A stretch of DNA of 51,519 bases from an uncultured Chitinophagales bacterium (GTDB taxonomy: Bacteria; Bacteroidota; Bacteroidia; Chitinophagales; JAHDHT01). The translations under genes were made by a program, and so were the position numbers. This document shows positions 9,058 to 46,293 of the stretch, one piece after another. Where the stretch lies: contig CALHDG010000084.1 of NCBI GenBank assembly GCA_938023075.1, forward strand, positions 1 through 51,519, in the 5' to 3' direction. A model generated the notes under the pieces. That model worked only from the letters and a program-made list of their open reading frames with translations, ran no database searches and was not told where the DNA came from. Position 1 is the first letter of the stretch. Each line of letters opens with the position of its first letter.

Positions 9058-10620
9058 TTACTCGCAGGTATTTATATTGACTTCAAAGTTGGCATTGGCT
9101 TTTACTTCAAAACCTTTATTCATTATTATTTCTCTGCCTGCATTAAATTTGGTATCTTCTCTTACAACCGAATTGTCAGTATAAATATGATCTCCAACCT
9201 GATAAGTAGATGGAGTAATATTTGTATCAGTAAAAGACATTTGCGGCGTACAGTTTGAGCCGATACTAACACTAACTATATCATGATCATCTTCGTCCTC
9301 ATTTCGTAAGGCACCATTTTGGTTTACCTCATTGTCTATATAAATAATTTCATCATTTTTGTTATCGGCAAATGAATCGATATCAGGCCAAACTAACGGT
9401 AAACCCTCTTCTGTATACCTGTTTACGTATAAGTTGATTTCGGCGAAATTGGCTATAGTACCTGTAAATGCATCGTTAACTGTAAATTGTATTTGTTTCT
9501 TTACGCTTTCTTTTGGTGAAATACCATCGCTTATATCTAATAAAGTAAAATTATCATTAAACATCAACCAACCTTCTTGCTCTTTTAGTGTTAAACCCGA
9601 TGATAAATAATTAATAATTTGAACATAGTTTACTTCAATTTCACCTTGATTAATAATTTCAATATCAAAAGTAAGTTCTTGTCCAGCTGTTGCAGGTACA
9701 ACTTGGTTAGGACTTAAATCAATTTTCAAGGCTAAGTCGTGATAGGGTTTTAAAAATTCTACTGCTGTAAAATTTAAATTTACCTCCTCAGTAACTTTTG
9801 AAACAGCCTGTACACTTCCCATAAATTGATCAATATGATATACATGAGATTCACTCGAGGTCATATCTTTGGCTACTGCAAAAAGCTTTCCCCTACTTGA
9901 AAAGGTTAAATTATTCACAAATTTATCTTTTATCTCAAAGAGTGGTGCAATAATTGACCCGGCTGTTTTATCAGCTACAACTAAACAAAAATCATTCTGA
10001 TGTTGGTAAACTACATATAATTGTCCGCTAAGTGGGTCTAAAGTAATATCCAAAACTATATCATAAATGTTGTCGTTTAACTCTAATTCTTCAATAACTT
10101 GATAATCTACCTTTACTTTGGTTTTGCTATGGTTAAATCCGTTTCGAATAATTTCTCCGGTGTTCGGATTAATTTTAAATATGATGTCAGGATGATCGGT
10201 TAAACGGTAAACCGCAAATACTTCTTGCTTTGCAGCATCATAGGTCATCGCTTCTACAGATTTAACATTAATTCCACCTAATTCTCCAGAAAGCGTTTTA
10301 TTAATATGTGCGATGGCAGTAAAAGAACTATTAGCTGGATTAACTGTACCAAAACTTTGCCCGTTAACCGCATACATTGTTTTGGTTACCGGATTACTTG
10401 TTAGTGCGGTTATATTGCTATTTGTACTTTTTGAAATTTCTGCCCATGTATTAGATGCGCTATCATACTCATAAAAAACATCTTCGAGTAAAGCATTTTT
10501 TCCTACAGCAAAGCAAGAAAAATCATTATCGATTTGAGCAAACAAAATTGTGGACTGTAATAATACAGTAACTAAGGTAACATAAAGTTTAACCTTTAAT
10601 TGGTTGTGGGGTAATAACAT
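9058..10620 (-). CDS. Secreted protein with DUF11/CARDB-like and coathanger-stack domains
   Basis: A 520-residue exported protein. The signal peptide ends near LLQSTILFAQ (about residue 29). Residues of about 50 to 290 look like a beta-propeller or WD-like sheet repeat region, with phrases such as TKTMYAVNGQSFGTVNP and GQLYVVYQHQ. Residues of about 300 to 410 resemble a DUF11/CARDB Ig-like module (FDIEIINQGEIEVNYVQI). The last 50 residues (from STYQVGDHIYTDNSV to KGFEVKANANFEVNI) resemble the triple coathanger-stack motif common at the ends of secreted Bacteroidota proteins. No classical type A sorting tail is present. The role is unknown; a surface or matrix protein is likely. A strong terminator follows. 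Confidence 0.82.
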   Translation of the reverse strand: MLLPHNQLKVKLYVTLVTVLLQSTILFAQIDNDFSCFAVGKNALLEDVFYEYDSASNTWAEISKSTNSNITALTSNPVTKTMYAVNGQSFGTVNPANSSFTAIAHINKTLSGELGGINVKSVEAMTYDAAKQEVFAVYRLTDHPDIIFKINPNTGEIIRNGFNHSKTKVKVDYQVIEELELNDNIYDIVLDITLDPLSGQLYVVYQHQNDFCLVVADKTAGSIIAPLFEIKDKFVNNLTFSSRGKLFAVAKDMTSSESHVYHIDQFMGSVQAVSKVTEEVNLNFTAVEFLKPYHDLALKIDLSPNQVVPATAGQELTFDIEIINQGEIEVNYVQIINYLSSGLTLKEQEGWLMFNDNFTLLDISDGISPKESVKKQIQFTVNDAFTGTIANFAEINLYVNRYTEEGLPLVWPDIDSFADNKNDEIIYIDNEVNQNGALRNEDEDDHDIVSVSIGSNCTPQMSFTDTNITPSTYQVGDHIYTDNSVVREDTKFNAGREIIMNKGFEVKANANFEVNINTCE

Positions 10621-10871
10621 GCGTTAAGTTTTAAAATGAAAAAATAAACTTGTATAGTTTATCGACTGGTTTGATAATATATATACGATTAATAAACAAA
10701 TTTGTTATATACAAAGTTCAAAAAAAATCAAATATTTTTTTAATTATTGATTTATGTTTACTTAGCTAGTCTAATTTAAGATTTTACAAAAGCTTTTGCA
10801 CTTTCTTGCACCTATGTATACTATACTGGAATCGTAACTCCTGTTTCAAAATAGTGCATTTTACAGCCATT

Positions 10872-10887
10872 TGTTTCACGTGAAACA
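10872..10887. promoter_or_regulatory. parS-type ParB binding site 1
   Basis: TGTTTCACGTGAAACA is a perfect 16-bp palindrome and fits the bacterial chromosomal parS consensus TGTTnCACGTGAAACA exactly. Confidence 0.85.
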
Positions 10888-11004
10888 TTGCTATGTCAAT
10901 TAGATTAACAAGTAGAATAAAAATCGTTTAAATTCATTAAATGCTTTAAAAAATGATAGTGTAAGATTTGAAAAGTATAAATAAATTTAACAACATCATA
11001 AATA

Positions 11005-11020
11005 TGTTCCACGTGAAACA
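11005..11020. promoter_or_regulatory. parS-type ParB binding site 2
   Basis: TGTTCCACGTGAAACA fits the same consensus exactly, 133 bp from site 1. Two exact matches this close in non-coding DNA are very unlikely by chance. Confidence 0.87.
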
Positions 11021-12509
11021 TTGTTATGCTCAGTCTTAATTACAGTAGTTTCATATAAAAATAGATTTTTGCTAAACAGCCGATCTGTTATTGTTGTTTA
11101 ATTTGTATTGCCTAACGGTTACTTTAGTATGAATCATTGGATAATTCAAATAATATGCTACTGCCTCTAACAAGTCTATCAATCAACTACAAAGTTAGAC
11201 TGCAATTTCTATTTCAAAATAACATCTAAAACGTACCCTCAAACAAGATGAGAAGACGTGTAAAATACATAATTATCTTTAGTTCATTAACCAGTTTTAT
11301 TTACAATAATCACGATTTCTGAACTTAGAGAAATTAGACAAAACATTATTAATAATGGAGATTTCGTATTAACATATTGTAAAGAGTAAGATTGATGAAA
11401 TTATTAAACTTTTGACAAGGCAAAAATACATTGCATAATGTCTATATTAACATCTAATAAGCTTAGAATTTTTGACCAATCTTAAAGTTATGTGTTATCA
11501 AAATAAATGGCTTTCAGGTCTATAGACCAATCGTTTAAGAAATCAGTTTGATCCTTCAAAACCTAATATTGAATTTCCATTTTAATAAGATGTATGTTGT
11601 TTGAGAATTATTCAGACAAGTTGTCTTCCTTCAATCGATAGTACATAATTTATCTAATGTCAATTTATAGTTTATAAATTAACTGTAATACAATTATTTT
11701 TATCGCGATTAAGATGGAGCAAAGCTAAAGGAATACTCAGTATCTCTATGTTATTTTGACTTACGTTAGCTAAACCAATCTCCTTTTTAATCAGATAAAT
11801 TCTGAGCAAGCTAATTCACTTCATTTAATATCTTATCAGAATACCGGTTTATGATGGGTGTTAGACGGGAAGTCAATAAAATTATTGTTGAAACTTAAAT
11901 GATATAATATCTCTTTACCATAATTTCTATTACAATAAAGGTTCGTTATATGTAAATCAAACATTTAAATAAAGCCAACAAAGTTACTTACTCTATTTGT
12001 TTACAGCTATAGCATTAACGTAATACCACCTTATTAACTAAAATCAAATAGTTAGTAACATAACGTTAATATTTATTTATATATCACTCTATTTCACTAT
12101 TTTATAGACCATGCCACGTGCTGATAGTTTGTTAGTTCAAATAAAGTTATACACTACTTTATAATCGAAATTATTTTAATTAAAAATCTTGTAATTCTTA
12201 TGCAACAAACTTATTAGAAGATTAATCACATCAATTTATCTTGAATCCACATAAATATTAGTAGAAAGTTATAAAGATACCAAATATTAACAGATTGTTT
12301 AAAAAGCAGAAAGCAATAACAATTAAAGGAAACAACATGTTAATCAACTGTCAATTAATAACTCAAAATTGTTAGTAACCTTAAAATAAAACGTAATTCA
12401 ATTAATCTATCAACCAATCCACATCCCTTATTATTATTATTAATTTTAAATATTATTATTAATAGAAGAGTTGTAACGTGGATAAACTAAAAAATATCAA
12501 TTTTCAAAT

Positions 12510-12517
12510 TACCTTTG
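12510..12517 (+). promoter_or_regulatory. Promoter -7 element for the methyltransferase gene
   Basis: TACCTTTG is an exact match to the Bacteroidota -7 consensus TAnnTTTG and lies 17 bp before the ATG at 12535, giving a very short leader. No TTG is found at -33. Confidence 0.5.
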
Positions 12518-12534
12518 TGTCGTCAAATTGAAAA

Positions 12535-13347
12535 ATGAAAAAAGAGCGCGATTATATTTTGGGAACTCACGAGGCAGAATTAAACCGGTTGAAATTGCAG
12601 CACCAAATTTGGAGACCGCACGTTTTAGCCGCTTGGCAAAAAGCAGGTATCACAATCGGCTCAGCGGTTTTAGATGTTGGGGCAGGTCCGGGTTATGCAA
12701 CTTTCGATTTGCAAGATATTGTTGGCAGAAGTGGAAAAGTGATAAGCGTAGAACGATCGAAAAAATTTGTAGATCATCTTTTGCAACACGCTGACAAAAG
12801 CCAAACAAATGTAGAAGCATATGAGTTGGATTTAATGGAAGATGAGATACCCACTAAAAATTTAGACTTTGCTTGGTGTCGATGGGTAGCCTGTTTTGTA
12901 CATTCTCCGAAATTGTTGGTACAAAAAATTGCCAATTGCCTCAAATCGAAAGGGCGGGTAATTTTTCACGAATATGTTCATTATGAATCTTGGCAGCTAT
13001 TGCCACCCAACAAACATCAAAAACAATTTATTAATGAAGTTATTAAAAGTTGGAGAGCGCAAGGAGGTGAACCTAATATTGCTGCATTTTTACCAGAAAT
13101 ATTACATCAACATAATTTTGATATAGTGTCGACAAAGCCATTAGTCTTTAACTGTACACCAAACGATTATTTTTGGCAATGGCCCGAAAGTTTTATAGAA
13201 ATAAATTTAATAAGGCAAGTAGAATTAGGTGGCGTAAGTCAACAATGGGCAGAGGAGGTTTTAGAAAGTTTTAGAAAAGCAAAAAGCAATCCATTTTCTA
13301 TGCAAGTAACGCCAATGGTATTAGAAATAATTGCGGAGAAGCAATAG
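12535..13347 (+). CDS. Class I SAM-dependent methyltransferase
   Basis: A 270-residue cytoplasmic methyltransferase. Motif I is VLDVGAGPGYATFDL (residues 45-59), then VISVERSKKFVDHLL (acidic motif II), YELDLMEDEIP and LDFAWCRWVACFV (motif IV region), and KSKGRVIFHEYVHY. The C-terminal 130 residues are less typical, with Trp-rich stretches (NDYFWQWPESFIE) that may form a substrate lid. The family is the broad Methyltransf_11/25 group; the substrate cannot be named. It is the first gene right of the gene-free origin-like region and stands alone, with a gap of more than 100 bp to the next gene. Confidence 0.85.
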   Translation: MKKERDYILGTHEAELNRLKLQHQIWRPHVLAAWQKAGITIGSAVLDVGAGPGYATFDLQDIVGRSGKVISVERSKKFVDHLLQHADKSQTNVEAYELDLMEDEIPTKNLDFAWCRWVACFVHSPKLLVQKIANCLKSKGRVIFHEYVHYESWQLLPPNKHQKQFINEVIKSWRAQGGEPNIAAFLPEILHQHNFDIVSTKPLVFNCTPNDYFWQWPESFIEINLIRQVELGGVSQQWAEEVLESFRKAKSNPFSMQVTPMVLEIIAEKQ

Positions 13348-13469
13348 AATACTTTAATTTATGTACTTAATATAAATAAACTTTAGTATATTGTAAGATA
13401 TTTTTAGATATGATGTAATATTTCTATGTAACATTGAAGAATTACAAAACGACAAAACAAACTCAGCCT

Positions 13470-40961: not shown

Positions 40962-41210
40962 GACAAAACTATCAAATTGGTTGATCCTTTCCTGTTTTGA
41001 CTGACATCGTTTTTTCTCTTTCTACGAAGCACCGAAGTTTTTAAACTAGCCCCGATTGCAGCGGTTATGCCATTTTGAGTGGCTTGTAGTGTTGGCAAAT
41101 GGCATTTGAGCGGAAAGCGGGACTAAAGTTATAATGATGCTTCAAGGTTTCGCTTCAAAAAAAATCTACGCTAAAGTATCAACTACTTTATCTATTTGGA
41201 AAAACTTGTC
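40962..41210 (+). mobile_element. MITE-like element, family 1, copy C
   Basis: A 249-bp element. Ends are GACAAAACTATCAAATTGG and, reverse-complemented, GACAAGTTTTTCCAAA. The core has the REP-like CCCCGATTGCAGCGG/GAGCGGAAAGCGGG. Eight-base flanks GTAACTTT (40954-40961) and GTTATTTT (41211-41218) agree at six of eight positions and look like a decayed target duplication. An uninterrupted relative of the target occurs at about 30007-30041 (GGACAGTAATTTTTGAATTA). In the gene-free span 40733-41475 only this element, the terminator and a promoter are visible. Confidence 0.82.
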
Positions 41211-44260: not shown

Positions 44261-45667
44261 ATGGGAAAACAAAAATTAAAAGGGAAAGATTTAAGAAAAC
44301 TGCCTTTTAAAACCAATGAACAAAAAAGTTTAGCCATCAACATCATGGCGCAACATTATAAACATCTTAAAAAACACGATAAATTAGATTTATTAAGTGC
44401 GATATTGGCACAGCCAAAAAATTATGAAAACGACAAACATTTAAAACCTTTGGTGAATACTTTATTGCCTAAAGTGGTACATCAAAACTTTACAAGCTAT
44501 TTGCTAAACGAAGAGGCAAGGGCTTTTAAAATTTACGGCAAAAAATTCATTGATCAGAAAGCCATCAAACAAATGGAAGTGGCGATGAAATTACCGGTAG
44601 CCACAAAAGGGGCTCTAATGCCCGATGCGCACTTGGGTTACGGCTTACCCATTGGAGGCGTATTAGCTACTAAAAATGAGGTGATTCCGTATGCCGTTGG
44701 TATGGACATTGGCTGTAGAATGGCTTTATCCATAGTAGACTTGCCACCAATTGAATTGAAGAAGAATGCTTATCAATTTAAAAAGGCTTTAAAAGAAAAA
44801 ACTCATTTTGGCAGAACTAAAAGAAATGACCGATGGTATGATCATGCCGTTTTGGACAGAAAAGAATTTGAAGAAAGCCCCTTATTAAGATCATTAAAAG
44901 ATAAAGCGGCGCAACAAATTGGCACTTCTGGCTCAGGCAATCACTTTGTTGAGTTTGGCTTGGTAGAGTTACCTGATAACAACCAAATGCAATTACCCAA
45001 AGGACAGTATGTTGGTATTTTATCGCATAGTGGCTCAAGAGGAATGGGAGCGGCTATTGCTAATCATTACACACAAATTGCTAAAGATGTTTGTCGTTTG
45101 CCCAAAGGTGCTATCCATTTGGGTTGGTTAGATTTAGACTCAGAAGCCGGAGCAGCTTATTGGAGCAGCATGAATTTAGCCGGTGACTATGCTAAGGCAT
45201 GTCACGAGGTGATTCATCAAAATTTATTGAAAAGTATTGGAGCGAAAGCCGTCTGTACTATTGAAAATCATCATAACTTTGCATGGAAAGAAAAACAAGC
45301 CAATGGCGAAGAATGGATTGTACACAGAAAAGGAGCAACCCCAGCACAAGAAAATGTAATGGGTATTATTCCTGGTAGTATGACGACTCCGGCGTTTATA
45401 GTTTCTGGTAAAGGAAAAGAAGATACTTTAAACTCGGCTGCGCATGGGGCGGGCAGACGATACTCGCGCTCTAAAATGAAAAGTGATTATACCCGAAGCG
45501 ATTTAAAACAGGCTTTACAACAAGCCAAAGTTACTTTAATAGGCGGTGATATTGATGAAGCACCACACGCTTACAAAAACATTCACGATGTAATGGATGC
45601 ACAACAAGATCTATTAAAAATAGAAGGTACGTTTAGCCCTAAAATTGTAAAAATGGATAAAAAATGA
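44261..45667 (+). CDS. rtcB: RNA-splicing ligase RtcB
   Basis: A 468-residue RNA ligase that joins 2',3'-cyclic phosphate (or 3'-phosphate) and 5'-OH ends using GTP and Mn2+. Signatures are [29 protein letters not shown] (metal-binding Cys152), [13 protein letters not shown] (metal-binding His), [19 protein letters not shown] and VHRKGATPA with the nucleotide-accepting His355. The N-terminal 90 residues form an extension not needed in the short RtcB1 form, and the C-terminus ends in a [12 protein letters not shown] block. The stop overlaps the prfH start (ATGA), a coupled arrangement. PrfH-linked RtcB enzymes are known to repair cleaved 16S rRNA. Confidence 0.95.
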
Positions 45668-46293
45668 ACCAGAAAATCATTCAAATATCAGCCGGCAAAG
45701 GACCCAAAGAATGCGCATGGGTAGTTACTCAATTGCGAAAAGTAATGATTAAAGACTTAGAAGTACATGGCATTCGTTTAATTAAAGAACAGCAAATAAC
45801 GGGTAACAACAGCATTCTAATATCGGTTAGTTTAACTATTGAAGGTAAAAACCTCGATGCATTTATGGAAAGTTGGTTAGGCACCATTCAGTGGATTGGC
45901 AAAAGCGTTTTCAGAAAACATCATAAACGAAAAAATTGGTTTGTTAAAGTTACAGAGCATCAACCCAACAAAAAAATATTTTTTAAAGATGATGATCTTA
46001 AAATGGAAACCATGCGATCGGGCGGCAAGGGCGGACAGCATGTAAATAAAGTGGAGACTGCCGTTCGCTTAATTCATCAACCAACCGGTATACAAGTGGT
46101 TTCAAAAGAGGAGCGTTCACAAAGTCAAAACAAAAAGATTGCGTTGAAAAAATTGCATCAAAAACTACAGGGCTTAAACGAGAAAAACAACCAACAGCAA
46201 ACACAACTTTTGTGGCAAGACCATAACGCAATTGAGCGTGGAAATGCCAAAAGAATTTTTAAAGGGCAAAAATTTAAAGAACTGAAACAATGA
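45664..46293 (+). CDS. prfH: Peptide chain release factor homolog PrfH
   Basis: A 209-residue class I release-factor homolog. The GGQ motif is at residues 123-125 in [16 protein letters not shown], followed by [14 protein letters not shown]. Domain 2, needed to read stop codons, is shortened, as in PrfH rather than PrfB. In Escherichia coli PrfH has been described as releasing peptide from ribosomes whose 16S rRNA is cut at the decoding centre, after which RtcB reseals the RNA. The start codon overlaps the rtcB stop by 4 bp, and its stop overlaps the next start the same way, so three genes form one tightly coupled operon. Confidence 0.92.

Follow-up and report, generated by a model that had tools for sequence, protein, structure and literature searches.

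Replication origins of Bacteroidota often lie away from dnaA, which makes it difficult to locate them when a metagenome assembly is fragmented. In the established ParABS mechanism, ParB loads at parS, spreads from it and, together with ParA, separates the origins. The parS consensus for chromosomal ParABS used here, the 16-bp palindrome TGTTNCACGTGAAACA, comes from a review according to which parS lies near oriC in most species with ParAB-parS (PMC7022226). For bacterial origins, a basal unwinding system (BUS) has been defined that consists of a DnaA-box, a spacer and DnaA-trios, in that order (PMC8287927). In gut bacteria of several phyla, the origin was placed by parS clusters and GC skew, backed by read coverage, and dnaA was not always adjacent to it (PMC10197239). 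A search of open-access papers found no literature on parS or oriC in Chitinophagales.

We analyzed a contig of 51,519 nucleotides (C84; CALHDG010000084.1), here called the window, from an uncultured Chitinophagales bacterium whose assembly comprises 6,124,846 bases in 288 contigs (97% complete, 0.08% contamination). Like the chromosomal ParABS systems in the review (PMC7022226), the window has exact consensus sites, two of them clustered, and its genome has one ParA/ParB pair; unlike in those systems, parAB and the usual parS neighbor mnmG (gidA) are on other contigs, and its partition function is a predicted one.

A parS pair in a gene-free gap

The parS sites and the genes around them are as follows.

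9058..10620, minus strand: left neighbor, encoding a DUF11-domain protein of 520 aa
10621..12534, no strand assigned: gene-free, AT-rich stretch with the parS pair and putative oriC, recognized by the length of the ORF-free gap and its low GC
10872..10887, no strand assigned: parS site 1, TGTTTCACGTGAAACA, a perfect palindrome and exact consensus match on both strands
11005..11020, plus strand: parS site 2, TGTTCCACGTGAAACA, exact consensus match
12535..13347, plus strand: right neighbor, encoding a class I SAM methyltransferase of 270 aa

With an ORF cut-off of 80 aa, the ORF-free gap (10621-12527; 1,907 bp) is the longest in the window, the runner-up measuring 792 bp, and its GC content is 25 to 27%, versus ~33% around it. 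The flanking genes diverge, running on the minus strand to the left (9058-10620) and on the plus strand to the right (12535-13347). The long gene-free stretch and the divergence had been put forward in an earlier note on this DNA and both hold; alone, they are a weak argument for an origin. No synteny of window genes with the parS loci of relatives was found near parS, and, as a point against an origin, neither of the two flanking genes is an origin gene in those relatives. Among 39 relatives, the top match to the methyltransferase is just 31% identical and lies away from parS.

The same note had reported two exact parS sites 133 bp apart, starting at 10872 and 11005, and both are present at these positions, each within a longer common 27-nt repeat (89% identity). 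When the whole assembly was searched with TGTTNCACGTGNAACA at up to one mismatch, exact matches occurred only at these two sites, a single one-mismatch site was found on contig C12, and the reversed-pattern control gave 0 matches; parS is thus not spread over the genome. A search that tolerates mismatches does give chance matches to the parS pattern (at up to 3 mismatches, 1.8 are expected in the window), but that AT-rich intergenic DNA produced two such palindromes by accident is hardly conceivable, given two exact sites within 133 bp, none elsewhere in 6.12 Mb, and a ParB/ParA pair in the genome. The gap is almost certainly a ParB centromere, with binding predicted from its sequence.

ParA, ParB and DnaA genes

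As the earlier note had observed, neither parA, parB nor dnaA lies within the window. The one HTH_ParB match in the genome (128 bits) is on contig C205, where a ParB of 304 aa adjoins a ParA of 275 aa; this chromosomal-type pair is the only one in the genome, and dnaA is on contig C141. The core of the C205 ParB aligns with solved ParB, Noc and Spo0J chains, and in this alignment the residue preceding the recognition serine is arginine in the C205 protein and glutamine in Noc. Presumably, following work on ParB/Noc specificity, this arginine fits a parS rather than a Noc-site reading.

A parS pair outside the usual mnmG context, on contigs that cannot be joined at this point, might also be the partition locus of a plasmid, a chromid or an integrated element instead of the main chromosome. 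This is very improbable, however: the window bears ordinary chromosomal genes such as that for cytidylate kinase, the single ParB shares its contig with murF-like and recG-like genes (read from translations), and the parS sequence of the window is the universal chromosomal consensus.

An origin-like element in the gap

Near its right end, the gap contains a candidate BUS element; its parts and the box-like sites near it are as follows.

12243..12251, plus strand: weak DnaA-box-like GAATCCACA, 2 mismatches
12406-12414, plus strand: weaker tandem box-like TCTATCAAC, directly upstream of the next box
12415..12423, plus strand: DnaA-box-like CAATCCACA, 2 mismatches to TTATCCACA
12424..12427, plus strand: short GC-rich spacer TCCC; relatives have GCC or CCC at the equivalent place
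12428..12442, plus strand: DnaA-trio-like repeat (TTA)x5, middle-A trios on the complementary strand (compare the BUS definition in PMC8287927)
12443..12465, plus strand: putative unwinding stretch ATTTTAAATATTATTATTAATAG, A/T at 22 of 23 bases
12477..12485, minus strand: facing DnaA-box-like TTATCCACG, 1 mismatch

The plus strand at 12415-12442 thus reads CAATCCACA, TCCC and TTATTATTATTATTA, followed by 23 bases with one G. Like the described BUS (PMC8287927), the element has a box within two mismatches, a spacer no longer than 16 nt (here 4 bases), five middle-A trios and an AT-rich flank; unlike it, its trios are all 3'-AAT-5', the commonest known being 3'-GAT-5', and its boxes are weak. 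The tandem-box spacing at 12406-12423 is the same as in relatives (e.g., L276/L277, where TTATCYAACA directly precedes ATTCACA), in which TTTAAAT-type stretches come after the element too. Box-like sites with up to 2 mismatches number four between 12190 and 12490 and are weak and not dense, as many as five per 300 bp occurring elsewhere in the window, and a classical DnaA-box count (TTATNCACA, up to one mismatch) found no cluster in the gap and a window total below chance. The element is evidence beyond that in the earlier note and strengthens the case for an origin.

The element in relatives

The element was first spotted by eye in the window, which makes pattern searches that include the window post hoc; it was therefore tested in relatives. 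One form of it, AATNCACANCCTTAATAAT, searched in 148 genomes from the order with up to one mismatch, has 25 matches, spread over 23 of them (reversed control, ~10 matches), and 11 of the 25 places lie 1.7 to 17 kb from mnmG, where ~0.25 would be expected by an estimate from genome sizes. The pattern ATNCACA N1-6 CYTAWTADT has 14 matches in origin loci totaling 1.31 Mb, whereas 2.38 Mb of control DNA has none. Since the window and the two loci from which the pattern was drawn are among the 14, 11 matches are independent, and a single genus accounts for several of these. A looser exact pattern, searched genome-wide, has one other place in the window's genome (C87:37351).

We also built a matrix from the elements of 14 relatives, leaving the window out, which avoids the post hoc problem. 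Over 436 kb of the window's genome (G000), the top site was window 12405-12437 with a score of 23.9, followed by one at 19.7; the simulated maximum for 51 kb was 11.2 ± 2.3 (highest of 60, 16.9), and all 118 control stretches (2.33 Mb in total) stayed below 20. This site shares the gap with the parS pair, ~1.4 kb away. In relative G020, likewise left out of the training set, the top site (~1,330,409; score 30.4, next 19.0) lies by the switch in GC skew described below, just upstream of an apparent nadA and 16.6 kb from parS. Among origin loci outside the training set, just 2 of 86 scored 23.9 or more; either some members of the order lack the predicted element, or it often lies beyond the flanks sampled.

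The mnmG-adjacent oriC/parS loci of other Chitinophagales (e.g., Chitinophaga L171 and L174; G020 and G029) resemble the window in having parS with an element of the same kind a few kb away, or 16.6 kb in the case of G020; they differ in that here the module sits between the DUF11 and methyltransferase genes, with mnmG elsewhere and lacking parS. Named loci from Chitinophaga have parS next to mnmG, and clusters of DnaA boxes lie no more than 5 kb off.

Two side observations concern other loci. A predicted element or box cluster lies just upstream of a nadA-like coding sequence in L098 (~13100-13450), L040 (~12800-13300) and L038 (982-2700), and nadA is a possible second origin marker in the order. 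The Cytophagales mnmG loci L217 (9674-10060), L211 and L215 (both 9476-9823) carry 13 to 20 DnaA boxes per 400 bp, ~2.7 kb downstream of mnmG.

parS and mnmG across the order

A first survey found parS in 31 of 40 genomes, the window's included, few and clustered, and identified mnmG as the recurrent parS neighbor in 18 of 19 (~20 kb examined around the sites). Widening the survey to 148 genomes from the order gave exact parS in 86, again few and clustered. Those among the 86 with places listed and outside family f17 number 49, and comparison of two tables by eye put parS within ~1 kb of mnmG in 48 of them, the exception being the window's genome. Around named mnmG loci, exact parS occurs within ~5 kb in 56 of 80, and several more have one-mismatch sites. 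The remaining 62 of the 148 genomes have no exact parS, many of them at 95 to 100% completeness; examples are most of genus g25 (family f7), and g38 (f2). Variant sites may stand in for it, TGTTACACGTGGAACA in G015 being one of them.

Family f17, which is probably Saprospiraceae judging by a single named locus whose mnmG lacks parS, departs from this arrangement: by eye, all 23 genomes searched have parS either 30 to 260 kb away from mnmG or on a different contig. In one f17 locus (L050, 5233-9941), parS follows threonine-pathway genes, encoding a homoserine-kinase-like protein and threonine synthase, and in a second (L250, 4822-13915), the genes before parS have the same sizes as in the first. 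These two loci suggest that the parS context in f17 is family specific.

The mnmG of the window's genome lies on contig C149, preceded by an AAA-ATPase gene; parS is absent there, and no DnaA-box cluster was found by this mnmG in the stretches examined. The one other sampled member of the window's family, G001, has parS 279 bp from mnmG; it keeps the linkage, and the uncoupling in the window's genome therefore arose within the family.

GC skew and the probable location of the origin

Relative G020, a near-complete genome in two contigs (one of 2.85 Mb), was sampled in 80 stretches of 20 kb plus the parS stretch. Skew is negative to the left and positive to the right of the parS/mnmG stretch and turns back in sign at the far contig end; the fine minimum, within 60 kb around, is at 1,345,432, 1.6 kb from parS at 1,347,048. 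By the gap in the window, gene-strand-corrected GC3 skew is 0.000 ± 0.042 on the left and +0.021 ± 0.019 on the right, which is not significant on a 51-kb contig of a weakly skewed genome, and plain window skew and the GC3 skew of other contigs give a weak, mixed signal in this fragmented genome. Skew within the assembly speaks neither for nor against an origin at the gap. In G143, where parS and mnmG are 260 kb apart, skew around both is too flat to mark an origin.

These results bear on whether parS here might be a centromere only, with replication starting elsewhere (e.g., tens of kb off, by mnmG or by dnaA) and the match at 12415 arising by chance. The distance in G020 shows that sharing one gap is not obligatory, and the weak boxes, the second pattern match on C87 and the non-significant skew by the gap are also compatible with this reading. 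Even so, we consider this unlikely: a matrix made from relatives only gives 12405 the top score of the 436 kb scanned, higher than anything in the 2.33 Mb of control DNA, this site falls inside the gap with the genome's only exact parS pair, and the C149 mnmG has neither parS nor, in the stretches examined, a box cluster. The uniqueness of parS, the position of parS/mnmG at the skew switch in G020 and the presence of an order-wide element in the same gap argue that 10621-12534 is, with high probability, the chromosomal origin region, where ParB would load at parS. The proximity to oriC proposed in the earlier note is supported by parS uniqueness, by the G020 skew minimum at the parS locus and by the DnaA-box/DnaA-trio element at 12405-12442. 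Of the outcomes that the note had named as contradicting its proposal, a distant skew minimum or depth peak and dozens of scattered parS matches, neither was seen as far as the available sequence allowed.

By analogy with the BUS, DnaA would bind the weak tandem boxes at 12406-12423, extend over the (TTA)5 trios and open the AT-rich stretch to 12465. The C205 ParB would load at the two parS sites, ~1.4 kb from the element, and then spread, and with ParA it would move newly copied origins apart. The parts of this module are of known kinds; what is less ordinary is its separation from mnmG. We tentatively suggest, at somewhat less than even confidence, that the BUS and the parS pair left the mnmG neighborhood as a unit and that such uncoupling has occurred at least twice, including in f17. 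If so, origin position is evolutionarily mobile while the BUS and parS stay together. The element derived from relatives, combined with parS, offers a testable route to origins that lie away from dnaA in fragmented assemblies, for which the usual neighbor gene mnmG is also an unsafe marker, as genomes like the window's indicate.

Other features of the window

Two further features lie outside the gap. A Flavo-1 RNA (RF01705) is predicted at 41044-41128 on the plus strand, where the gap ahead of a reprolysin-like protease gene scores 42.2 bits, the gathering score being 42. At 44261-46293, also on the plus strand, rtcB and an RF-1-domain (prfH-like) gene are adjacent with a 4-base overlap and look like an RtcB-PrfH RNA-repair pair.
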